Shown here one piece after another: positions 1,914 to 11,856 of a DNA stretch of 13,127 nt. Under the pieces are notes generated by a model. It ran no database searches, was not told the DNA's origin, and worked only from the letters and a program-made list of their open reading frames with translations. Every line of letters starts with the position of its first letter. The stretch's first letter is position 1. The stretch spans positions 1 to 13,127 of the forward strand of contig JAHIPN010000173.1 in the NCBI GenBank assembly GCA_018894595.1, written 5' to 3'. This stretch comes from a bacterium. GTDB lineage: Bacteria; Atribacterota; JS1; SB-45; 34-128. A program made the translations under genes and the position numbers.

Positions 1914-1979
1914 CAATTTTAGCAGCAATAACAAAAGTATAAAAGTATATAAAGTTATATTATGAGGGAGGGAATCCTT

Positions 1980-3221
1980 GTGAAAGAAGAATTAATAATT
2001 GATTCTAAGGTATTAAATGAGGTTAATAAATTTTTAACCAAAAAGAGCAACCCGGTAATTGACGAAATAATTAAAATTGTTGAGAAATATGGTTGTCCGA
2101 AAAAGATTAATGATCTTGCTCAAAAAAATGGAAAAATTGGAATACTTATGGAAAAATTAAAACATAAAAAACCGGAATATGTAGACCAACTCAATTGGTT
2201 AATAGAACAAAGAGATGAAAAAAAATTCATAAGTATGGATGAATACAAAAATAAGATTAATGCCCCCAAAGACATGATTGACGAAAGCTACAAAGTTACA
2301 CTGGAAATATCTTCACTACATTATTTCCCCTGGCTAATTTCCCAGGCAAAACAGTCGATTGAAAGAGGAGAACTGATGCCAGGCAGGTTTATAAGGGTTA
2401 GGTTTATGAAAGAACAAGAGGAGGACGGAGATCTATTAGCTACTATTTCAGCGATGAAAATATTAGGCTCGACATGGGTTGAAAGCCTGGACACAAAAGG
2501 AACAGATGGTTCAAATATACATTTAGGCGGCGCCGAGACAATTACCGGATATTTTGGAGGAATTGGACAACCGAATGATTATGTTTATAAGTGGATTGAT
2601 GAGTATCTTTACTATTATACCAATTATGGTGTAAAGGAGGTACTAAATATAAATGGAGGAACAATTTTAGCAAGCTATTTCCTCTACAAACTTGGAATCG
2701 ATATTGAGTTTAAGATTTCAGTATTTATGGGAAATGATAATCCTCTTAATGTTTTGTGGACATTAATGACTGCAAAGTTATTTTCCCGAGAAGATGGGAC
2801 AACACCACTTGTAGGGTTTAACCTCTCAAATTCAGTCAATAATGAAACAATTTCTTTTACAGGAGATATAAGAAAAGCTTTAGGATTTGAGGATATGGTT
2901 AGAATAGAACACCATATAGTCGAAACTTCTAAAGGTATAGTAAAACAACCATACGATAGACTGGCAGAGCTAATTGAAATCGCTAAAAAAGTAAAAAATA
3001 TTTCCGCCAAGCATGAAGGGGGAATTCCTGAAGTTGAGGAGAAGAGAGAACATCCATCTGATATTCTGGAATATTTTATGCCAAGAAATGAGGTTATAAA
3101 AAGCAATTTAATGTCATGTTTAGAGCGAAACTATCTGGACAAGCACGATGCAGTTCAGAGGACTGCTAAAGAGCTTTTAAGAAATGGTATTCCGGTAATA
3201 GCTGCCCCAAAACTTCATTAA
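1980..3221 (+). CDS. Conserved-looking protein of unknown function, possible TIM-barrel enzyme
   Basis: I do not recognise this 413-residue soluble protein. I place the start at GTG 1980, not at the in-frame ATG 1962: the sequence GAGGGAGG (1964-1971) is a near-perfect ribosome binding site about eight bases before the GTG, whereas nothing suitable precedes the ATG. The first ~110 residues are charged and helical-looking. The rest has alternating strand/helix character with conserved-looking glycine-rich turns: TKGTDGSNIHLGGAETITGY, EVLNINGGTILASYFLYKLG, FNLSNSVNNETI and EHHIVETSKG. That pattern would fit a barrel-type enzyme, loosely reminiscent of cobalamin-dependent mutases, but this is an impression and not a match. 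There is no signal peptide, membrane segment or cysteine cluster. It follows panB in the same direction and ends 307 bases before the G3P block. Confidence 0.85.
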   Translation: MKEELIIDSKVLNEVNKFLTKKSNPVIDEIIKIVEKYGCPKKINDLAQKNGKIGILMEKLKHKKPEYVDQLNWLIEQRDEKKFISMDEYKNKINAPKDMIDESYKVTLEISSLHYFPWLISQAKQSIERGELMPGRFIRVRFMKEQEEDGDLLATISAMKILGSTWVESLDTKGTDGSNIHLGGAETITGYFGGIGQPNDYVYKWIDEYLYYYTNYGVKEVLNINGGTILASYFLYKLGIDIEFKISVFMGNDNPLNVLWTLMTAKLFSREDGTTPLVGFNLSNSVNNETISFTGDIRKALGFEDMVRIEHHIVETSKGIVKQPYDRLAELIEIAKKVKNISAKHEGGIPEVEEKREHPSDILEYFMPRNEVIKSNLMSCLERNYLDKHDAVQRTAKELLRNGIPVIAAPKLH

Positions 3222-3313: not shown

Positions 3314-3354
3314 CTTTTCTAAAGAATTGATCCAGACAAGATGTAAACAAACAT

Positions 3355-3382
3355 TGTAAATTATAATTCTGTATGATATTAT
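3355..3382 (+). promoter_or_regulatory. Candidate promoter of the G3P dehydrogenase operon
   Basis: TTGTAA (3355-3360) and TATTAT (3377-3382) are separated by 16 bases in a very AT-rich stretch. A start just downstream would give a leader of about 140 bases before the dehydrogenase gene, and that leader contains the overlapping hairpins at 3433-3474. The surrounding AT-richness makes chance matches easy. Confidence 0.35.
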
Positions 3383-3432
3383 ATAAAAAATTGAATATAC
3401 AAATGGTAGAGATTTTAGAGAAAGCCATTTTA

Positions 3433-3474
3433 TTAACCAGGGGGTTAATCCCCTTTATCTGATTTTGGTCAGAT
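3433..3474 (+). promoter_or_regulatory. Overlapping hairpins in the dehydrogenase leader (candidate attenuator)
   Basis: Hairpin A pairs TTAACC (3433-3438) with GGTTAA (3443-3448). Hairpin B pairs GGGG (3440-3443) with CCCC (3450-3453), plus one G-T pair, around TTAA. A and B share bases and cannot form together. Hairpin C pairs ATCTGA (3457-3462) with TCAGAT (3469-3474). A switch of this kind ahead of a G3P catabolic gene, with a GlpP gene a few kilobases away, suggests an RNA control element. The stems are short and no clean terminator U-tract follows, so this is tentative. Confidence 0.3.
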
Positions 3475-3528
3475 ATGTCGGTTGGTGAAATGGTTTTTTT
3501 ATTTATTATGCAACCAAGGAGAATGTTA

Positions 3529-5037
3529 ATGAAAGCAGATGTGGTAATTATAGGTGGCGGAGTAATTGGTACAGCCATTGCCCGAGAGCTATCCAGATAT
3601 AGTCTGAAAATAATTCTTATAGAAAAAGAAGATGATGTGGCTATGGGGACCAGCAAGGGCAATTCCGGGATTATCCATGCCGGCTATAATGCTGATTTTA
3701 GAACCCTAAAAGGACAATTAAATATAAAAAGCAATCCCAGGTTTGATAAATTATGCCAGGACTTGAAAGTGCGTTTTAAGAGAATAGGATCATTAGTTGT
3801 AGGCTTTACCCAGGAAGATTTTAATAAATTGAAAGAATTAAAAGAAAATGGAGAGAAGAATGGGATTAAAAATTTAGAAATAATTAGAGGTCCTAAATTA
3901 TTTGAATTAGAACCCAATTTAAATCCCCAGGCCAAGTATGCCCTTTATGCCCCTTCTGCCGGGATTATTTCCCCTTATAAGTTTACCATCGCCCTGGCTG
4001 ATAATGCAGTGATAAACGGGGTTAAAGTATTACTGGAGACAGAAGCAAAAGATATCAGAATTGAGGAAAAGCAAGTTTACGGTGTAGTTACTGACCGGGG
4101 CTTGATCGAAACAAGGGTGATAATAAATGCTGCCGGATTGTATGCTGACGAAATAGCCAAAACTGCCGGAGATAGTTTTAAAATAAGTCCTTTGAAAGGC
4201 GAATATCAGCTCTTTGATAAACAGTGGGGGAATCTGGTGAATCATATTCTTTTCCCCATTCCCACTAAATTATCCAAAGGAATTTTAGTGGCTCCCACGG
4301 TTCATGGCAATCTCTTAGTAGGGCCTAACTCTTGCCGGGTAAAAGAAAAGGATGACCTGTCTACTACCAGGGCCGGGACACAGGAAGTATATGAGGGAGC
4401 CAGAAAATTAATTCCTCATCTTCCCCATCAAGACCTGATAAACTCTTTTGCCGGTTTAAGAGCCGATATTGAAGGAAGAGATGATTTTACCATTGAAGCT
4501 TCAAAAAAGATTAGAGGATTTATCAATGTAGCAGGTATTGAATCACCGGGCTTAAGTTCCGCACCGGCTATTGCCGAGATGGTCAGTGGTATTCTAAAAG
4601 AAGTGGTTAAAGAAATTTCTCCCCAATTAGAATTAAATTACAAGGATGATTTTATAGAAGCCCTGCCTGAGCAGCCGAAATTTGCAGATTATTTAGACAA
4701 GACAGGCGAATGGCAGGAGATAGTAGAAAAAGATGCTGATTACGGAGAGATTATCTGCCGATGTGAAAAGGTAAGCAAAGGAGAGATGCTCAGAGCTATC
4801 CATCAACCGCTACCGGCCAGAAGTCTGGATGCCATCAAAAGAAGGATAAGGGCAGGGATGGGACGATGCCAGGGAGGTTTTTGCAGTCCCAGAGTTTTAA
4901 AAATTCTATCGGAAGAATTAAAAATTTCTCCTTTGAGTATAACTAAAAAAGGAAAAGGTTCAGAAATTTTGAAGACCAAGACCAAAGATATGATCAAAGA
5001 AACGGGAGTTAAGTTTAAAGATGAAGTTAGAGTATGA
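3529..5037 (+). CDS. FAD-dependent glycerol-3-phosphate dehydrogenase-like oxidoreductase (GlpA/LhgO type) with BFD-like [2Fe-2S] domain
   Basis: This protein probably oxidises G3P to dihydroxyacetone phosphate, passing electrons from FAD onward. I start it at ATG 3529 because AAGGAG (3516-3521) lies seven bases upstream; this gives 502 residues, and the ATG at 3523 is also possible. An FAD-binding Rossmann fold opens the protein (GGGVIG at 9-14, ribose-binding Glu32). TSKGNSGIIHAGYNA follows, a DAO-superfamily motif typical of GlpA and L-2-hydroxyglutarate dehydrogenase relatives. FAGLRADIEGRDDFTI is a further family signature. The C-terminus is a BFD-like domain with Cys410, Cys412, Cys447 and Cys452 (CRC...CQGGFC), expected to hold a [2Fe-2S] cluster. 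Its 3' end overlaps the next gene by 17 bases, indicating translational coupling. The G3P substrate is inferred from neighbouring GlpP and UgpBAE; another 2-hydroxyacid is the main alternative. Confidence 0.88.
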   Translation: MKADVVIIGGGVIGTAIARELSRYSLKIILIEKEDDVAMGTSKGNSGIIHAGYNADFRTLKGQLNIKSNPRFDKLCQDLKVRFKRIGSLVVGFTQEDFNKLKELKENGEKNGIKNLEIIRGPKLFELEPNLNPQAKYALYAPSAGIISPYKFTIALADNAVINGVKVLLETEAKDIRIEEKQVYGVVTDRGLIETRVIINAAGLYADEIAKTAGDSFKISPLKGEYQLFDKQWGNLVNHILFPIPTKLSKGILVAPTVHGNLLVGPNSCRVKEKDDLSTTRAGTQEVYEGARKLIPHLPHQDLINSFAGLRADIEGRDDFTIEASKKIRGFINVAGIESPGLSSAPAIAEMVSGILKEVVKEISPQLELNYKDDFIEALPEQPKFADYLDKTGEWQEIVEKDADYGEIICRCEKVSKGEMLRAIHQPLPARSLDAIKRRIRAGMGRCQGGFCSPRVLKILSEELKISPLSITKKGKGSEILKTKTKDMIKETGVKFKDEVRV

Positions 5038-6286
5038 TTTAGTAATTATCGGAGGGGGTCCGGCTGGTCTGGCTGTTGCCCTGGAAGCCAAAAGAAACGC
5101 GGTGAAAGATATTTTACTTTTAGAGAGAGACAAATATCTGGGAGGAATCCTTCCCCAATGTATCCACAATGGATTTGGTTTACAGTATTTTAAGGAAGAA
5201 CTGACCGGACCGGAATATGCAGAAAGATTTATTGCTAAACTTAATGACAATCAGATTAATGTAAAGACAGAAACGATGGTTATAAAGATAACCCCCGATA
5301 AACGGATTATAGCCATAAACAGAGATGATGGTTTATTGCATATTCAGGCTAAAGCGGTTGTTCTGGCTATGGGGTGCCGGGAAAGAACCCGAGAAGCGAT
5401 TGCTATCCCCGGGAGCAGACCTGCCGGAATATTTACCGCCGGCACTGCCCAGAGATATATTAATATTGAAGGATATATGCCGGGCCGTGAGGTAGTCGTT
5501 CTGGGTTCGGGGGACATCGGGATGATTATGGCTCGCAGGATGACTTTAGAAGGAGCAAGGGTTAAAGCAGTTCTGGAAATTATGCCATTTTCTACTGGAC
5601 TGATCAGAAACAAAGTTCAGTGTCTGGATGATTTCAATATTCCTTTAAAATTCAATCATACTATTACCCTGATTAAGGGGGAAAAGCGGGTAGAAAGAGT
5701 GACCGTCGCTCAGGTGGATAAAAATTTACAGGCAATTCCCGGAAGCGAGGAAGAGATAAGCTGTGATACCATCCTATTATCTGTTGGCTTAATCCCGGAA
5801 AATGAACTAACCGGAGAAGCAGGGATTAAATTAGACCCGGTAACCAGAGGCCCCATAGTAAATGAAAACCGAGAGACAGAGATTGAGGGAATTTTTGCCT
5901 GTGGAAATGTCCTGCATGTCCACGATTTAGCCGATTTTGTTACTGAAGAGGGAGAAATTGTGGGTAGAGCTGTAGGCGAATACCTCAAAAGGAATAGAAA
6001 GTTTCGTTCCCAATCTATAAAAATAGTCCCCGGTGATAATATTGCTTATGTAGTTCCTCAACATATAGATTTTATTGTTCCGGGAAGGAAGAAAATAAAA
6101 ATATTTATGCGGGTAAAAAAGCCGGCAGAGAAGGTCAGGATTAATTTATTAGATGATAAAGGCAGAGCATTGGGTTCTTACAAGAAGAGGATTGTAACCC
6201 CGGGGGAGATGGTGAGCATCTATTTGCCGGAAGTTTTATTGGATGATGAATTAAAAAATATAACCATCTCTATTAAAAGGGATTAG
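5021..6286 (+). CDS. NAD(P)/FAD-dependent oxidoreductase, partner of the G3P dehydrogenase
   Basis: This 421-residue flavoprotein has two nucleotide-binding folds. The first binds FAD (GGGPAG at 11-16, Glu35 ending strand two); the second has GSGDIG at 162-167 and probably binds NAD(P). Between them, LGGILPQCIHNGFG (around 40-53, with Cys47) and AMGCRERTR are shared with the HcnB/GlpB-like pyridine nucleotide-disulphide oxidoreductase group. FACGNVLHVHDLADFVTEEG is the closing FAD motif. Residues from about 325 onward look like a small beta-rich domain. The gene starts inside the 3' end of the dehydrogenase gene, with GGGAG (5004-5008) ahead of it, and is followed after 12 bases by the DUF1667 gene. 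In related clusters these three genes travel together, so it most likely accepts electrons from the dehydrogenase and passes them to NAD(P) or the DUF1667 protein. The exact redox partner is inferred. Confidence 0.88.
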   Translation: MKLEYDLVIIGGGPAGLAVALEAKRNAVKDILLLERDKYLGGILPQCIHNGFGLQYFKEELTGPEYAERFIAKLNDNQINVKTETMVIKITPDKRIIAINRDDGLLHIQAKAVVLAMGCRERTREAIAIPGSRPAGIFTAGTAQRYINIEGYMPGREVVVLGSGDIGMIMARRMTLEGARVKAVLEIMPFSTGLIRNKVQCLDDFNIPLKFNHTITLIKGEKRVERVTVAQVDKNLQAIPGSEEEISCDTILLSVGLIPENELTGEAGIKLDPVTRGPIVNENRETEIEGIFACGNVLHVHDLADFVTEEGEIVGRAVGEYLKRNRKFRSQSIKIVPGDNIAYVVPQHIDFIVPGRKKIKIFMRVKKPAEKVRINLLDDKGRALGSYKKRIVTPGEMVSIYLPEVLLDDELKNITISIKRD

Positions 6287-6298
6287 GGAGTAAAGAGG

Positions 6299-6682
6299 AT
6301 GGAACAAAATAAGATAATATGTGTAAGCTGTCCCATAGGTTGTAGGATGACCATCCAGAGTAAAGATGGAAAGACTACCTCTATTATAGGGAATGACTGT
6401 CCTAAAGGGATTAAATATGCCGAAGGAGAATTTATTAATCCACTAAGAATTTTACCCACCACAGTAAAAGTGATTGGCGGTGAATTACCTTTAGTGTCGG
6501 TAAAGACGGAAAAAGCAATTCCTAAAAGATTATTATTAAAAGCTATGACGGAAATTGCTGAAATCGAAGTTAATGCCCCGGTTAAGATAGGTCAGGTAAT
6601 AAAAGATGATTTGATGGGAACAGGCGTAAGCCTGGTTGCCACCCGTAATATTAAGAGAGCTGATTCTAACCTGCGTTCCTAA
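6299..6682 (+). CDS. DUF1667 domain-containing protein
   Basis: This small 127-residue protein has the DUF1667 layout. The N-terminal cysteines Cys8, Cys11 and Cys15 (CVSCPIGC) and Cys34 (NDCPKG) suggest an iron-sulphur or metal site. A C-terminal half follows, rich in strands, containing INPLRILPTTVKV and VKTEKAIPKRLL. The family has no firm biochemical role that I know of, but it is regularly found directly after a GlpA-like dehydrogenase and an FAD/NAD oxidoreductase, as here. It may therefore be the electron-transfer or assembly subunit of that complex. The ribosome binding site GGAG (6287-6290) lies immediately after the stop codon of the preceding gene, so translation is probably coupled. 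There is no signal peptide or membrane segment. The family call is firm; the role is inferred. Confidence 0.9.
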   Translation: MEQNKIICVSCPIGCRMTIQSKDGKTTSIIGNDCPKGIKYAEGEFINPLRILPTTVKVIGGELPLVSVKTEKAIPKRLLLKAMTEIAEIEVNAPVKIGQVIKDDLMGTGVSLVATRNIKRADSNLRS

Positions 6683-6690
6683 TGTAAACT

Positions 6691-6728
6691 TTTATTTTTT
6701 TTCTCTTTCTTAACGCGATACACGATAC
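6691..6728. repeat. Pyrimidine-rich tract ending in ACGCGATACACGATAC (dispersed repeat, copy 2)
   Basis: The core ACGCGATACACGATAC (6713-6728) matches the element at 769-784 at 15 of 16 bases and is likewise preceded by a T/C-rich run. It sits eight bases after the DUF1667 stop codon, in the 168-base gap before glpP. Confidence 0.55.
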
Positions 6729-6751
6729 TAGTTTTGCATTCCTATAAAATT

Positions 6752-6780
6752 TTGAAGTAACCGATTATATGTGTTATTAT
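6752..6780 (+). promoter_or_regulatory. Candidate promoter of glpP
   Basis: TTGAAG (6752-6757) and TATTAT (6775-6780) are spaced by 17 bases, and the glpP start codon lies 70 bases further on. The region is AT-rich, so the match is only suggestive. It would give the regulator its own transcript, independent of the dehydrogenase operon. Confidence 0.35.
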
Positions 6781-6850
6781 TTTTATAGCGATTTTAAAAT
6801 CAATATTTTGTACTTATATAAAATCATAACTTTAGGGGAAAAAACTATAG

Positions 6851-7411
6851 ATGCAAGAACTTAGAGAATGTTTTAAAGAACACCCCGTAATTGCCTCCAT
6901 AAGAAACAATACAGATTTTACATATGCCCTCAACAGTAAGGCTGCTGCCCTTTTTATTCTTCACGGAGATATATTTAATCTTCCCCAGATTATGGAAGAA
7001 TGCAAAAAGCATAACAAGCTGGTTTTTTTACATATGGATCTAATTAAAGGAATTGGTCGAGACAGGGAAGGGATAATATATTTAGCCAGGAAAGAACTTT
7101 GTAATGGGATTGTTACCACTAAAAATAATCTAATTAATATAGCTAAAAAACAAGGGCTTATTGCTATACAGCGTCTTTTTTTGCTTGATTCCGCTGCCTT
7201 AAAAACCGGAGAACAGATATTAAAACATAATCAACCCGATGCAGTGGAAATTTTACCCGGGATAGCCGCTCCATATTTTATAGAGCATATATATAAAGAG
7301 TTGCTCTGTCCGGTTATTGCCGGCGGTCTGATTTCTGATAAAAGTGAAATAGAGAAATTATTGCAAAAAGGAGTCCTGGCAGTATCTACCAGTAAAAAAG
7401 AATTATGGTAG
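6851..7411 (+). CDS. glpP: Glycerol-3-phosphate responsive antiterminator GlpP
   Basis: GlpP binds G3P and then leader mRNA of glycerol genes, preventing premature termination and stabilising the transcript. The 186-residue length matches Bacillus GlpP. The motifs match closely along the chain: VIASIRN near the start, VFLHMDLIKGIGRDREG, GIVTTKNNLINIAKKQ, IAIQRLFLLDSAALKTG, EILPGIAAPY, PVIAGGLI and the end VSTSKKELW. The whole protein is a compact beta/alpha barrel-like domain. Its ribosome binding site is weak (AGGGGAA about ten bases before the ATG). It stands alone between the dehydrogenase trio and the ABC importer, each of which has a long structured leader, so both are natural candidates for its targets. 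Neither glpF nor glpK, the classical targets, is in the window. The identification is firm; the target assignment is inference. Confidence 0.95.
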   Translation: MQELRECFKEHPVIASIRNNTDFTYALNSKAAALFILHGDIFNLPQIMEECKKHNKLVFLHMDLIKGIGRDREGIIYLARKELCNGIVTTKNNLINIAKKQGLIAIQRLFLLDSAALKTGEQILKHNQPDAVEILPGIAAPYFIEHIYKELLCPVIAGGLISDKSEIEKLLQKGVLAVSTSKKELW

Positions 7412-7442
7412 TTTTAATTAAACTTGGAAATAATATTTTTTC

Positions 7443-7471
7443 TTTAAATACAGTAGCAATTAGGTTATAAT
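7443..7471 (+). promoter_or_regulatory. Candidate promoter of the ugp operon
   Basis: A perfect -10 box TATAAT (7466-7471) lies 17 bases after the weaker -35 TTTAAA (7443-7448). Transcription from here would make an untranslated leader of about 330 bases in front of ugpB, long enough for antitermination control. Confidence 0.4.
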
Positions 7472-7810
7472 TAAAAATAGCTCGTTATACTTTTTTGGTA
7501 AGTTAGTTTAGAGTTTTAATAGATAACTTCAATTTGCGATTTATCAACTACATATTCATCGCTAACCTACTACTAGATTAGCGTTGGGTGCTTGAGGAAG
7601 AATTCTATCAGTTCGATGTTTTTGCGATATTGATAGGCTTTTCTAACTTACTGATAGGGTTATTTAATTTCTCCGCTCTTAGTACACTCTTAGAGAATAG
7701 CAATTTTGCATGGGCTACTAATTTAAGATGAAAGGGGGCGATATATAGAAATAATAAAGGTGTATCAATCAATAAAGTTTTAAAATTTTTAAGGAGGTTA
7801 TAACTTTATT
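7472..7810 (+). promoter_or_regulatory. Long non-coding leader of ugpB, candidate GlpP-responsive region
   Basis: No reading frame of note occurs in this stretch. Visible structure includes a 6-bp stem CGCTAA/TTAGCG (7560-7565 with 7578-7583). CTATCA (7605-7610) can pair either with TGATAG at 7631-7636 or with TGATAG at 7652-7657, which are mutually exclusive. There is no GC-rich stem with a U-run, so a classical intrinsic terminator is not evident. It ends in a strong AAGGAGGT site (7791-7798) for ugpB. The GlpP gene directly upstream and a G3P importer downstream are the reason for suspecting GlpP control; there is no direct proof in the sequence. Confidence 0.3.
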
Positions 7811-9130
7811 ATGAAATTGAGAAAGAATTTTTTGATTATTTTGATTTTAACTTTATGTTTGTTGTTATCAACAGGGACTGTTTTAGCTCAACCGGTAACC
7901 ATAACCTTTTGGCATGCAATGAGCGGGTCGCGTCTTGGGGTATTAGAGTCGATTATTGAAGGCTTTAATGCCACCCATCCTGATTTTGAAGTTAAGCCGC
8001 TATTTACCGGGACCTATGCGGAAACACTAACTAAATATGTTGCAGCATACCCTAGTAAAACAGGACCAAGTATAGTCCAAGTTTATGAAGTAGGGACTCA
8101 GACGATGATTGACAGTGACGCCATTACTCCTGTCTATCAAATCCCTGGAATGTTGGGAGAAACCTGGGATTGGGCACAATATGTTATCCCCATTACTAAC
8201 TACTATTCAGTCGACGGGAACCTTTGGTCCATGCCTTTTAACTCCTCTACCGCCATGCTTTACTACAACAAAGATCTTTTTGAAGCAGCCGGACTTGATC
8301 CGAATAAGCCGCCTACAACCTGGAAAGAGATGGAAGAGTATGGAGAAAAATTCCTGGCAAGCGGAGTAGTAGATCATGTCTATTCCACTGGTTGGCCTGA
8401 TTGGATTTTCGAACAAGCCCTTGCCATTCATGACCATCTTTATGCAGACAATGATAATGGACGATCCGGATTAGCCACAGAAGTAGTCTTTAACGATGAT
8501 TTTGGTCATATGATCTTCGAAACCTGGACAAGGCTGCACGATAAGGGAATTTTTATCTTTGGTGGAGCAGAGTACTCGGCAAACACAGCTTTTAATTCTG
8601 GGCAGATCGCTATGCTTATCCAGTCTACTTCATCACTGGCTGGCATTATCAAAGCTGCTGAATTTAAGGTTGGCACAAGCTTCTACCCTCGTTTCGAAGG
8701 ATATCCGGTGGGAAACTCTATTATCGGAGGCGGAAGCCTTTGGGTCACCAAAGGACAAAGCGAAGAAGAACTCCGCGGTGTTTGGGAATTCCTTAAATAT
8801 CTTGGCCAAAAAGATATTGCTATCCAGTGGCACAAAGGTACAGGATACTTTCCGGTGAGCGGAGCCGCACTTAAAACTCTATTAGACGAAGGCTGGTTCT
8901 CGGAAGATCAAGCCTACCTCACCGCTTTCCTTCAGATCCTTTCCGGGAAACGGGATACTGCAGCATCTACTGGAGTCCGCTTAGGACCTTTTGTGGCAAT
9001 GAGAGAAGTTTTTGTATCTAGCCTTGAGAAATCACTTGCCGGTCAGCTTTCTCCGAAAGATGCTTTAAATGAAGCCGCAGAAAAAATGAACCTAAAATTA
9101 AAAGACTACTTAGAACTATACGGCAAATAA
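7811..9130 (+). CDS. ugpB: sn-glycerol-3-phosphate ABC transporter, substrate-binding protein UgpB
   Basis: This is a 439-residue exported family-1 solute-binding protein that captures G3P or glycerophosphodiesters and delivers them to UgpAE. The signal peptide spans residues 1-26: a KLRK start, a long leucine/isoleucine core and VLA before Gln27. There is no lipobox, so a free periplasmic protein is likely. The mature protein opens ITFWHAMSG. Features shared with Escherichia coli UgpB include QVYEVGT (90-96), the aromatic WPDW (195-198), IIGGGSLWV, WHKGTGYFPV with Tyr346, and GVRLG with Arg390. These match positions known to surround G3P in the family, which makes the substrate call stronger than for a generic sugar binder. 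AAGGAGGT lies 12 bases upstream of the ATG. The gene ends 80 bases before ugpA, with a terminator-like hairpin between them. Confidence 0.93.
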   Translation: MKLRKNFLIILILTLCLLLSTGTVLAQPVTITFWHAMSGSRLGVLESIIEGFNATHPDFEVKPLFTGTYAETLTKYVAAYPSKTGPSIVQVYEVGTQTMIDSDAITPVYQIPGMLGETWDWAQYVIPITNYYSVDGNLWSMPFNSSTAMLYYNKDLFEAAGLDPNKPPTTWKEMEEYGEKFLASGVVDHVYSTGWPDWIFEQALAIHDHLYADNDNGRSGLATEVVFNDDFGHMIFETWTRLHDKGIFIFGGAEYSANTAFNSGQIAMLIQSTSSLAGIIKAAEFKVGTSFYPRFEGYPVGNSIIGGGSLWVTKGQSEEELRGVWEFLKYLGQKDIAIQWHKGTGYFPVSGAALKTLLDEGWFSEDQAYLTAFLQILSGKRDTAASTGVRLGPFVAMREVFVSSLEKSLAGQLSPKDALNEAAEKMNLKLKDYLELYGK

Positions 9131-9143
9131 AAACATACCACAG

Positions 9144-9180
9144 TGCGGGAGCAGGTTTTATACTTGCTCCCGTAGTTTTT
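9144..9180 (+). terminator. Terminator-like hairpin between ugpB and ugpA
   Basis: CGGGAGCAGG (9146-9155) pairs with CTTGCTCCCG (9163-9172) around the loop TTTTATA, with one G-T pair, and the stem can extend by two weaker pairs. TAGTTTTT follows. This is a good intrinsic-terminator shape. Lying inside the ugp operon it is probably leaky or stabilises the upstream mRNA 3' end, giving more binding protein than permease, a common arrangement in ABC importer operons. Confidence 0.75.
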
Positions 9181-9209
9181 AAACCCCCAATGTACCAAAA
9201 GGAGAAAGA

Positions 9210-10103
9210 ATGCACGAAGATAAATTCCCAGGACACAAATTTTTACCTTACCTACTTATAGCTCCATCTATTGCAGTAATTTTTATCTTTTTAATCGGTC
9301 CTTTTGGCCAAAGCATATATGAATCTTTCTTTGTCTCGACGCCGTTTGGCACGAGAACTATATATGTTGGACTTCGCAATTATATCCGTTTATTTTCTTC
9401 CCCGGACTATCTAAACAGTGTTGCAGTTACCTTTAAGTTCGCTGCTTTTGTTATCATTATTGGACTTTCTTTTTCACTGGCGATTGCCCAATTACTAAAT
9501 CAGAAGATCAGGGGAATGGGCTTCTATCAAGTCGCCCTTATCTGGACTTACGCCATTTCTCCGACAATAGCTGGTGTTATCTGGGCTTCAATGTTTGCAC
9601 CTGCCACCGGTCTTATCCCTTATATTATCTCTATACTATCCGGGGGATACAAGATGAATTGGATGACCAACGGCCAGTTAGCGCTGCTTATAGTTTCGGC
9701 TGCTGCTACCTGGAAAATGCTGGGCTACAATATCATTTTTTTTCTGGCGGGATTGCAAAATGTACCGAACGAATTTCTGGAAGCTGCTCAGATAGATGGT
9801 GCAAGCCCCTGGAAAGCTTTTTGGCGGATAACTTTTCCCATGCTTTCCCCCACTACCAGCTTTTTATTATTTGTTAATATGCTTTATGCTTTCTTCCAGG
9901 TTTTCGGATTGATAGATATTATGACACATGGCGGGCCTGGAAACGCAACAGAACTTCTGGTCTATAAGTTGTATCGTGATGGTTTTATTCATCTAAATAC
10001 CGGATCTGCATCAGCCCAATCATTTATAATATTTTTTGTAATTTCTGTGGTAGCGATTATTCAATTAAGAATAGTTACCAGAAAAGCTATTTATTTTCGG
10101 TGA
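9210..10103 (+). CDS. ugpA: sn-glycerol-3-phosphate ABC transporter, permease UgpA
   Basis: This is a 297-residue inner-membrane permease of the MalF-like class, with about six hydrophobic segments; the first is around residues 11-30 (YLLIAPSIAVIFIFLIGP). The ATPase-contact EAA loop is intact: EAAQIDGA beginning at Glu191 with Gly197, then FWRITFPMLSP. The C-terminal VFGLIDIMTHGGPGNATELL is characteristic of the UgpA/MalF family. AAAAGGAG (9197-9204) sits five bases before the ATG. The gene stops within the ribosome binding site of ugpE, so the two permeases are probably made in a coupled way and form the heterodimeric channel. Substrate assignment rests mainly on UgpB upstream. Confidence 0.92.
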   Translation: MHEDKFPGHKFLPYLLIAPSIAVIFIFLIGPFGQSIYESFFVSTPFGTRTIYVGLRNYIRLFSSPDYLNSVAVTFKFAAFVIIIGLSFSLAIAQLLNQKIRGMGFYQVALIWTYAISPTIAGVIWASMFAPATGLIPYIISILSGGYKMNWMTNGQLALLIVSAAATWKMLGYNIIFFLAGLQNVPNEFLEAAQIDGASPWKAFWRITFPMLSPTTSFLLFVNMLYAFFQVFGLIDIMTHGGPGNATELLVYKLYRDGFIHLNTGSASAQSFIIFFVISVVAIIQLRIVTRKAIYFR

Positions 10104-10114
10104 GGTAATATTTT

Positions 10115-10942
10115 ATGACAAGAAAAACTCGACAGGAAATTTTTATTCATGCAATACTTATTATATTGGTTATAGTCCTGGCTTTTCCGGTGTTTTTCGC
10201 TTTGGTTACCAGTACCTTAAGCCTCCAGGAGTCTTACCAGTATCCACCAAAACTTATACCAGGAGACCAATTTACGAACAATCTTAAAGAAGCCTGGGAG
10301 CGAGTTAATATAGGGCGGCTCTTTTTTAATAGTACCTTGATTTCAGTAGTAGTAGCAATAGTGAAAACTATCCTGGCATTACTGGCTGCCTTTGCCTATA
10401 CCCACTTTAAATTTCACGGTCAGGGTCTGTTATTTTCCCTGTGTATGATCACCCAAATGCTTCCTCTCCCCGTCCGTATTATTCCAACTTATCAGTTAAT
10501 GGCAACCTTCAACTGGATAAATTCTTACTATGCTCTTATGGTACCATTTTTTGCCAGCACAACCGGACTACTTCTTTTTCGGCAGTTCTATTTAACTGTG
10601 CCCGAAGACCTTCCGGACGCTGCCCGGGTCGATGGGGCAAGCCCTATGCGTTATTTCCTGCAAATTTTAGTTCCCATCTCCAAGACCAACATTGCCGCAC
10701 TATTTGTTATAGAATTTATCTTTATGTGGAGTCAGTACCTATGGCCGTTAATTGTAACCACTACCGGTGAAATGCGGGTTATACAAATTGGCATTAAAAT
10801 GCTCTTGGCCAGTGAGCAGATAGCTCCTGAGTGGAATGTTATTATGGCTGCTACAGTTATTGCTATGCTGCCTCCGCTTGTAGTCCTTCTGGTTTTGCGG
10901 AAAAGCTTTGTTGAAGGAATTGCAATGCAGACAACTAAATAA
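10115..10942 (+). CDS. ugpE: sn-glycerol-3-phosphate ABC transporter, permease UgpE
   Basis: This is the second permease, 275 residues and MalG-like, with about six membrane segments; the first is near residues 10-30. Its EAA loop reads DAARVDGA from Asp168 to Gly174, with Asp in place of the usual Glu, a conservative change, followed by MRYFLQILVPIS. The C-terminal MWSQYLWPLIVTT and the end VLRKSFVEGI closely follow E. coli UgpE (NQYLWPL, AFVRGL). GAGGT (10102-10106) overlaps the ugpA stop codon and is eight bases from the ATG. No UgpC ATPase gene follows: the next gene, 23 bases on, is a DUF89 protein. The ATPase must therefore come from elsewhere, possibly a shared multi-transporter ATPase. 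Confidence 0.92.
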   Translation: MTRKTRQEIFIHAILIILVIVLAFPVFFALVTSTLSLQESYQYPPKLIPGDQFTNNLKEAWERVNIGRLFFNSTLISVVVAIVKTILALLAAFAYTHFKFHGQGLLFSLCMITQMLPLPVRIIPTYQLMATFNWINSYYALMVPFFASTTGLLLFRQFYLTVPEDLPDAARVDGASPMRYFLQILVPISKTNIAALFVIEFIFMWSQYLWPLIVTTTGEMRVIQIGIKMLLASEQIAPEWNVIMAATVIAMLPPLVVLLVLRKSFVEGIAMQTTK

Positions 10943-10965: not shown

Positions 10966-11856
10966 ATGCGTACACATTTGAACTGTGCCAGCTGTATAAT
11001 AGATGATTTGTGCGGTGCTTTACAGTTAATCCCTTTAGAGGAAAAAATTAAAAAGGAGATATTAAGGGAATCTTTTCAATTTTTAGCTCGAGAGTTCTCC
11101 ACAGAAAAAATTCCCTCTTACTTCATCACTGAAGTTCATAGAATCTTAAAAGGGATATCAGGGATAGAAATTCCTTTTAAAGAAAGAAGAGATAAATGCA
11201 ACCAGCTCGGTATAAAGATGGCAGAAAAGATTGCCTTGGAAGCGGAGGGGATGGAAGAATTTGATAAATTTTCATTTTTAGTTAATTGGGCTATTGCCAG
11301 CAACCATTTGGATTTTCGGACAGTTGGAACCGGTTATGGTTTTCAAATGGCTGAAATAATAGAGGAACTTCGGGGCTGTGTTTCGGAGGGATTAAAAATA
11401 GACCAGAGAGCTGAAATATTTCAAAAAGCCAAAAACTCGTCCAAAATACTTTATATCCATGATAACGTGGGTGAAATTGCTTTTGATAAATTACTGATCC
11501 GGGAACTCAGAAGATATGGAGCTTCAGTAACTTCTGCCTTAAGGGGAGGGCCTATAACCAGTGATGCTACTATGGAAGATGGAGAAACGGTAGGACTTCA
11601 AGAAGCTGCTTCAAAAATTATTTTAGCCGGACCGGATACGCTGGGCATTTTTCTTAATGAAATGTCTGACCAATTAAAACGAGAGCTTCAGACTGCTGAT
11701 TTGATAATTGCCAAAGGCCAGGCGAATTATTACGCTTTAACTGAATACAAACCAAAAGTACCCGGTGAAATTTCCTGCCTTTTTAGAACCAAATGCGAGA
11801 TAGTATCAAACGATCTGGGAGAAACAGGAAAAATAAATGTAGCCATCTTGCTCTAA
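10966..11856 (+). CDS. DUF89 / ARMT1-like damage-control phosphatase family protein
   Basis: DUF89 proteins are metal-dependent phosphatases thought to remove harmful or misplaced sugar-phosphate and cofactor-phosphate by-products. At 296 residues this one is full length for the prokaryotic type. It opens MRTHLNCASC, with Cys7 and Cys10 as in bacterial and archaeal members. The metal and phosphate site is visible as DNVGEIAFD (166-174), ALRGGPITSDAT and IIAKGQANYYAL, and the end FRTKCEIVSNDLG is complete. At the usual N-D of the second motif it carries Ser-Asp, a mild departure. AAGGAG (10950-10955) lies ten bases before the ATG and only 23 bases separate it from ugpE, so it is probably cotranscribed with the importer. 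A role in clearing surplus phosphorylated intermediates of G3P metabolism would fit, but that is inference. Confidence 0.88.
   Translation: MRTHLNCASCIIDDLCGALQLIPLEEKIKKEILRESFQFLAREFSTEKIPSYFITEVHRILKGISGIEIPFKERRDKCNQLGIKMAEKIALEAEGMEEFDKFSFLVNWAIASNHLDFRTVGTGYGFQMAEIIEELRGCVSEGLKIDQRAEIFQKAKNSSKILYIHDNVGEIAFDKLLIRELRRYGASVTSALRGGPITSDATMEDGETVGLQEAASKIILAGPDTLGIFLNEMSDQLKRELQTADLIIAKGQANYYALTEYKPKVPGEISCLFRTKCEIVSNDLGETGKINVAILL

Follow-up and report, generated by a model that had tools for sequence, protein, structure and literature searches.

In Escherichia coli, the importer genes ugpBAECQ belong to the Pho regulon, are controlled by a transcription factor, and include ugpC and ugpQ. 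In Bacillus subtilis, the antiterminator GlpP works at three promoters, each followed by a GlpP site and a terminator in the 5' untranslated region, and its targets include glpT and glpQ, according to the accessible part of the source (PMC9604022). We analyzed here a glycerol-3-phosphate (G3P) gene cluster with a GlpP gene in a 13,127-nt stretch of Atribacterota DNA (JS1; SB-45; 34-128), contig JAHIPN010000173.1 of assembly GCA_018894595.1, forward strand, which is called the window below. Reading frames and Pfam/NCBIfam profiles gave eight consecutive + strand genes, encoding GlpA-like, Pyr_redox_2, DUF1667, GlpP, UgpB, UgpA, UgpE and ARMT1/DUF89 proteins. The window has the same GlpP family and the same proposed leader layout as the B. 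subtilis regulon (glpFK, glpD, and glpTQ leaders), but it differs in its ABC importer UgpBAE, its DUF1667 trio oxidase, the position of glpP inside the operon, and the lack of an adjacent glpF or glpK. The UgpBAE homologues are shared with E. coli ugpBAECQ, whereas the proposed control is by antitermination. We consider it probable that the cluster is an operon with which an Atribacterium scavenges and oxidizes G3P, and that a G3P-sensing antiterminator encoded within it turns it on through the leader RNA ahead of glpA.

Related arrangements are found in other bacteria. The clostridial cluster glpP-glpF-glpK-glpA-FADox-DUF1667 (Acetoanaerobium noterae, L001; loci and genomes of our sample carry L and G numbers) has GlpP near the same trio and a twin-RGAGA leader before glpF, but a glycerol facilitator and kinase where the window has ugpBAE. 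In Clostridium perfringens, glpP, glpA, lpd and the gene of a CXXC protein (CPE2549-2553) change together, as stated in the accessible part of the report (PMC6958937), which is in line with the GlpP-trio pairing. Bacilli operons of the order glpP-ugpC-ugpA-ugpE-ugpB-GDPD (L178, L182, L183; similar in L023 and L031) join GlpP and Ugp in a single run on one strand, and glpP is preceded there by a terminator leader whose variant boxes were recognized by eye; they differ from the window in their own UgpC, a GDPD-like gene, the absence of the trio from the run, and UgpB pockets of 8/9 residues. The Halanaerobiales order ugpB-A-E-?-GDPD-glpA-FADox-DUF1667-glpP (L212, L217) combines Ugp, trio, and GlpP in a same-strand run, but with a different gene order and an added GDPD gene; the sequence begins partway through the run and does not reach the leader. 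In Bacillus cereus genomes, glpPFKD and a UgpBEAC importer are both named, unlinked, in the portion of the paper available (PMC4896439). Literature searches found no description of GlpP control of a Ugp ABC importer or of the Atribacterial operon in the accessible portions of the sources. The first-pass annotation of this DNA had called the wiring one not known to be described; this stands, within those portions, for the ABC-importer version, but GlpP control of a G3P permease has been published for B. subtilis (PMC9604022, accessible part). The general principle is therefore already known, and the cluster is a regulatory variant rather than a new mechanism.

The following features were located at the leader (about 3389-3505) before glpA.

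3354-3382, + strand: promoter-like site of the cluster, TTGTAA-17 bases-TATTAT, with TG preceding the second hexamer (consensus scan)
3401-3430, + strand: proposed GlpP antiterminator hairpin, arms 3401-3407/3424-3430, with two AGAGA boxes in the loop (pattern scan)
3425-3500, + strand: intrinsic terminator, stem 3425-3438/3480-3493 with an inner hairpin, then seven U (folding and alignment)

The loop boxes occupy 3408-3412 and 3417-3421. The two predicted hairpins, 3401-3430 and 3425-3500, are mutually exclusive and have one common arm, which is the layout of an antiterminator switch. Folding of the leader far exceeds that of shuffled sequences, with z -5.5 for the window and z -7.9 for L005. 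Six leaders were aligned (window, L005, L123, L125, L007, and L008), and all retain AAAUGG-[UAGAGA...RGAGA...]-CCAUUU, a large stem whose 5' arm is again CCAUUU, and a tract rich in U. The core antiterminator stem AAAUGG/CCAUUU (3401-3406/3425-3430) is identical in 6/6 leaders; in the terminator, 92.8% of cells are paired across the six sequences compared with 22-47% when the alignment is slid, and three pairs have changed on both sides. The promoter-like site is kept in L005, and similar sites were seen by eye ahead of the L123 and L125 leaders. The RNA at 3383-3528, which the first-pass annotation had proposed as a leader, is confirmed as attenuator-like by folding, twin boxes, overlapping terminator, and conservation. 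Rfam families in the window gave sub-threshold matches only, at 3350-3540 and 7412-7820, and none at the gathering score; Rfam lists no family of the twin-box type.

The assignment of the twin box to GlpP comes from its distribution. The pattern was spotted by eye before glpF (L048, L074, L079, L001), glpA (L022, L078), and a GlpD-like gene (L076), in the same loci in which it was later counted; the 208-sequence set and the glpK and glpT counts described below add later loci. The GlpD reference and L076 match glycerol-3-phosphate dehydrogenase/oxidase models, under their cut-offs. Pattern-plus-stem scans with shuffles were chosen over a covariance model because the site is short and the terminator variable in length. 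The strict pattern requires RGAGA-N2..5-RGAGA (spacing up to 6 in the 208-sequence set), a stem that closes the loop, and a terminator that overlaps this stem. It matched 34 times across the window and 84 loci, one site being counted twice and some loci being near-identical, vs. a mean of 3.0 in three first-order shuffled sets. In 208 non-redundant sequences, which include the first loci and in which redundancy was judged solely from the end of the glpP protein, 71 hits were found in 0.314 Mb upstream of glp/ugp/GDPD/Na-Pi genes vs. 19 in 5.84 Mb elsewhere. The enrichment ahead of glp/ugp genes is about 70-fold across these GlpP loci, and some of the 19 hits elsewhere precede genes outside the reference set, e.g., the HAD gene of L002. 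Of 85 elements selected for boxes and terminator without regard to the stem, 59 could be closed by 4 or more pairs, compared with 15.7% for a shuffled 5' arm. Among Bacilli, 21 of the 52 loci with GlpP have the element no more than 1.5 kb upstream of glpK, compared with 0/15 genomes without GlpP (Fisher p 0.003). It also precedes glpT in 2/5 loci by the strict scan (L259, where this glpT is on a different contig from glpP, and L262, where glpT adjoins glpP and its frame has one stop), and L261, where glpT adjoins glpP, has a near match by eye. Since the distribution tracks GlpP in the enrichment, at glpT, and in the presence and absence before glpK, we take the box pair as the putative RNA site of GlpP. 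As the leader of glpA contains the twin-box switch that marks GlpP-linked leaders elsewhere, an RNA-level tie between GlpP and the window cluster is very likely.

The same element precedes a Na/Pi cotransporter (L015:2636), a HAD-type phosphatase (L025:5333), and an L-sulfolactate-dehydrogenase-like gene (L016:5935), which are possible further GlpP targets. It was also found at a GlpP locus of Streptomyces clavuligerus with a 12-pair terminator arm (L004:8758-8769).

The genes of the cluster and a hairpin between two of them are as follows.

3529-5037, + strand: GlpA-like FAD G3P oxidoreductase, DAO plus C-terminal BFD [2Fe-2S] domain (Pfam/NCBIfam)
5021-6286, + strand: Pyr_redox_2 FAD/NAD oxidoreductase, trio member (Pfam/NCBIfam)
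6299-6682, + strand: DUF1667 protein with four N-terminal Cys (104 bits; Cys read from the sequence)
6851-7411, + strand: GlpP, glycerol-3-phosphate responsive antiterminator, G3P_antiterm PF04309 (215.2 bits, cut-off 27)
7811-9130, + strand: UgpB-like G3P-binding protein (NF008211, 310.7 bits)
9144-9174, + strand: strong terminator-like hairpin in the ugpB-ugpA gap (terminator scan)
9210-10103, + strand: UgpA-like permease (252 bits, cut-off 335)
10115-10942, + strand: UgpE-like permease (257 bits, cut-off 297)
10966-11856, + strand: ARMT1-like (DUF89) phosphatase, final gene of the conserved run (Pfam; retained in L005, L006, and L123)

The profiles bear out the identities given in the first-pass annotation for the trio, GlpP and UgpB-A-E, in that order on a single strand; the ARMT1/DUF89 gene sits past 10942, where the stretch described there ended. 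For the first enzyme (3529-5037), the top NCBIfam model is type 2 glycerol-3-phosphate oxidase (325 bits, under the cut-off of 460) and the top PDB match is 4x9m, an L-alpha-glycerophosphate oxidase. It fails TIGR03377, the model for GlpA of the GlpABC anaerobic G3P dehydrogenase (163 bits vs. cut-off 552.8), and no GlpB or GlpC model was among the best 25 family models per cluster protein. The Cys cluster of the DUF1667 protein is a possible Fe-S site. GlpP covers positions 1-173 of the 173 in PF04309 and passes the Pfam gathering score; its only PDB matches are 3kts (nearest) and 1vkf. The UgpB-like protein misses the NCBIfam equivalog cut-off of 411, with NF008211 still its top model by far, and it is closest to the solved UgpB chains 4aq4 (5.8e-78), 9lff (8.8e-76), and 6x84 (2.1e-74), the next chain being at 2.5e-23. 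Nine residues of Phaeobacter UgpB (9lff) hold glycerol-1-phosphate (G1P) or G3P, as described in the accessible part of the source (PMC12718374). Mapped by alignment onto these, the window protein retains 9/9 contacts (Y69 E93 S146 W195 W198 S272 G307 Y346 R398), and we name it UgpB, as a predicted identity, from pocket and similarity and not from the equivalog cut-off. The genes of the window run do not include a UgpC ATPase; UgpC (NF008653) is above cut-off elsewhere in 3/4 relatives, and an ATPase from another locus presumably takes its place. The hairpin at 9144-9174 may favor the binding protein over the permeases. The gene at 1962-3221, downstream of panB, encodes a protein of 419 aa that matched neither Pfam nor NCBIfam families.

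The closest GlpP proteins in GTDB contigs, among the best 80 of 504 matches, are from Candidatus Atribacteria (L005, 91%; L006, 82%), then from Halanaerobiales (65%). PF04309 is above cut-off in 23/50 Atribacterota genomes. The order trio-glpP-ugpBAE-DUF89 is present in at least 3/50 of them (G001 with L005, G040 with L123, and G002 with L006), a lower bound, as most of the 23 were viewed only about 1.5 kb either side of glpP. The cluster order is not due to chance, since L005 and L123 have the same order, as does the part of L006 that its contig covers; this contig begins inside the Pyr_redox gene, and its glpA lies off the contig. In L006 (6486-9619) and L123 (13871-17017), DUF89 is followed by a second ugpB-A-E set, with the pocket YDSLWSGYR. 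Asp and Leu replace Glu and the first Trp in this second UgpB, which may mean a larger ligand such as glycerophosphocholine (GPC). The absence of glpF and glpK noted earlier holds within the window but, as regards glpK, not for its kin: G001, the closest relative with the arrangement, encodes three glycerol kinases above the curated cut-off, one of them on the same contig about 30 kb off. The idea that these bacteria are without glycerol kinase was rejected for this genome.

We propose the following sequence of events for the switch. Transcription would start near 3389, and without G3P the RNA would form the strong terminator at 3425-3500 ahead of glpA. G3P-loaded GlpP would bind the twin-AGAGA loop and stabilize the small hairpin 3401-3430, which would occupy the 5' arm of the terminator, so that polymerase could proceed into the trio, glpP, ugpBAE, and the DUF89 gene. 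Imported G3P would then lead to more G3P oxidation and import. Control of ugp in the window would depend on read-through over about 4.3 kb. Such read-through appears possible because the + strand has no terminator-like site from DUF1667 to ugpB in our scan. An intrinsic terminator with a putative GlpP-type site ahead of the first gene, as expected of a GlpP-controlled operon, was found at 3401-3500.

Two features of the region before and after glpP bear on how ugp would be reached.

6752-6780, + strand: promoter-like site before glpP, TTGAAG-17 bases-TATTAT (consensus scan)
7412-7656, + strand: insert in the glpP-ugpB gap, about 245 bases with approximate edges, specific to the window (alignment to relatives)

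The insert explains the glpP-ugpB gap of 399 bases in the window vs. 154 bases in L005, and it is not present in L005, L006, or L123. It contains a 24-nt imperfect inverted repeat (7498-7521/7628-7651), and a search of eight genomes gave only partial matches of 45-50 bases, in two of them. The repeat would suit a mobile element, but with matches so few and short this reading is tentative. A GlpP leader before ugpB (7472-7810), as suggested in the first-pass annotation, was rejected as both pattern scan and folding were negative: this RNA is largely the window-specific insert, and folding of the gap was unremarkable (z -1.2 for 7412-7822 and z -0.2 for 7660-7809). The 154-base gap of L005 likewise folds without unusual stability, and neither form of the gap has the element.

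Several observations weigh against control of the whole cluster by the switch. The pattern scan gave no GlpP-type element in 7412-7810, so that a leader directly before the importer genes, also expected of a GlpP-controlled operon, was not found in the window; the RNA-level, G3P-sensing control put forward earlier has sequence support at the glpA leader, but no GlpP leader stands ahead of ugpB. The 6752-6780 hexamers are kept in L005, L006, L125, and, with an 18-base spacer, L123, and the promoter-like site could drive glpP-ugp bypassing the switch. The trio and DUF89 proteins of G044 share 90-95% identity with those of the window. Here only 45 bases separate the 3' end of glpP from DUF89, and ugp is missing between them (contigs break inside glpP); UgpB was not found in that genome at E 1e-30. 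This absence is a lead, by which ugp would not be a fixed part of the cluster; in our reading, a core of GlpP and trio either gained ugp or lost it. The strict element is present in only 64/208 GlpP sequences; either many leaders escape the pattern or the element is absent from many GlpP loci. The strict scan finds nothing at 3/5 glpT leaders, and L260 and L263 are without any match. Covariation in the six leaders is thin: the antiterminator stem is invariant, and in the terminator the three pairs changed on both sides were matched by 20/500 shuffles, the covariation score by 109/500, and the number of pair types by 435/500.

These points give some weight to a different division of the cluster, in which GlpP governs only the oxidation trio while glpP and ugpBAE are constitutive from 6752-6780 and import is without RNA-level G3P control. 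We regard this as a serious but rather doubtful possibility. It fits the hexamers kept before glpP in the window and four Atribacterota sequences, the lack of an element before ugpB, and G044, which retains the leader though it has no ugp at the locus; an antiterminator also has to exist before its target opens. Yet neither DUF1667 and glpP nor glpP and ugpB are separated by a + strand terminator-like site, so read-through should add to the constitutive level, some loci elsewhere place the element directly before ugp or glpP-ugp operons, and the promoter-like matches in the window are near chance, with no excess (44 found vs. 38.2 expected). Two routes may act together, one giving a basal level of glpP and ugp and the other boosted by G3P. 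It is unlikely, though less remote than the terminator explanation given below, that the importer takes mainly archaeal-lipid G1P or a glycerophosphodiester, with G3P as inducer only. Atribacteria live among archaea. The single pocket of Phaeobacter UgpB, of which the window keeps the nine contacts, binds G1P with a Kd of 2.36 uM and G3P with 0.80 uM; however, the window pocket carries both Trp of the G3P/G1P type, contrasted with the GPC type (PMC12718374, accessible part), and the first enzyme (3529-5037) is nearest to G3P oxidase models. That the leader hairpin merely terminates the upstream gene 1962-3221, with GlpP adjacent by accident, is very improbable. An intrinsic terminator does sit between that gene and glpA, but its stem begins about 200 bases beyond the gene and past the promoter-like site, which is conserved; L007 and L008 of Halanaerobiales retain both the alternative stem and the twin boxes, and the element class tracks GlpP.

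The survey of glpP neighborhoods suggested in the first-pass annotation showed that the GlpP-Ugp linkage recurs in Atribacterota, Bacilli, Halanaerobiales and Methylomirabilota; adjacency of glpP and ugp is therefore not confined to this assembly. Same-strand glpP runs with at least two Ugp-like genes, i.e., genes with BLAST similarity to the window proteins, were found for 17/87 Bacilli glpP genes (13 of them with a UgpC-like ATPase), 6/30 in Halanaerobiales, and 1/4 in Methylomirabilota. The 87-locus Bacilli sample comprises places above cut-off and excludes two fragments (G111, G116) as well as the place in L023, which was already in the set; L140 and L172 yielded no glpP by the open reading frame filter, and L240 and L245 were cut to two glpP each. 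The Halanaerobiales count covers 30 of 34 places, as L007 and L008 were already in the set and two others were left out. The common Bacilli form is glpP-ugpC-A-E-B-GDPD; a UgpC of L023 scores above cut-off, whereas the GDPD-like gene of L031 stays below its own. The UgpB pocket is 9/9 in L005, L006, L123, L083, L026, and L218, and 8/9 in L023, L031, L178, L211, and others. Many Bacilli binding proteins share only 5-6 of the 9 pocket residues and may bind other compounds, and G3P import is not proven for all of them.

Under a relaxed rule, 9 of the 32 loci scanned (ugp-linked or related) had 10 hits between them, vs. 1, 2, 1, 0, and 1 in five shuffles. Strict or relaxed hits stand before glp or ugp genes in L151, L156, L162, L188, L194, L198, L211, L219, L254, L026, L083 (GlpD-like gene), L018, and L206. 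Variant boxes were seen by eye before glpP in L178, L182, L183, L181, and L197, and less clear ones in L023, L031, L046, L057, and L066. The strict and relaxed scans were negative in L185, L191, L199, L203, L205, L213, and L218, and also in L212 and L217, where the run is incomplete at its start. In L083, whose UgpB passes NF008211, boxes lie 183 bases before the ugpBAE set and the T run fails the rule. Repeats seen by eye upstream of the glpP-ugpCAEB operon in L031 and L046 resemble the TTAACA motif of Pho boxes, and phosphate control may be layered on GlpP control there.

A third importer type was found in L052 (Firmicutes bacterium ZCTH02-B6). The PhnD-type binding protein after glpP matches GpxB (9lf9) with 332 bits vs. 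108 for the next chain, and PhnC and PhnE homologues accompany it (L052:10585-14453). GpxB binds G1P and G3P, according to the accessible part of the source (PMC12718374). The gap between glpP and the GpxB-like gene reads GGGAC-GC-GGAGA-CCGU-GGAGA-A-GUCCC by eye, missed by the strict rule, and the element is found as well ahead of a GlpD-like gene on the opposite strand. GlpP may serve three unrelated importer types: GlpT, an MFS permease; Ugp, a CUT1 importer; and GpxB, the recently found phosphonate-family G1P/G3P importer seen in L052. We propose tentatively, and with slightly more doubt than belief, that GlpP acts through a single compact element that crosses phyla and is placed before GlpT, Ugp, or GpxB importers, and that it governs lipid head-group recycling in Atribacteria, perhaps including archaeal G1P. 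The element in this proposal would consist of two RGAGA boxes 2-6 bases apart in the loop of a hairpin whose 3' arm is the 5' arm of the terminator.

For the window, the link between GlpP and the cluster has advanced from adjacency to an RNA site that can be tested. The twin-RGAGA element provides a concrete signature for locating GlpP targets in uncultured bacteria. Its placement suggests that RNA-level sensing of G3P governs the scavenging of glycerol phosphates through several importer types, beyond the use of glycerol.

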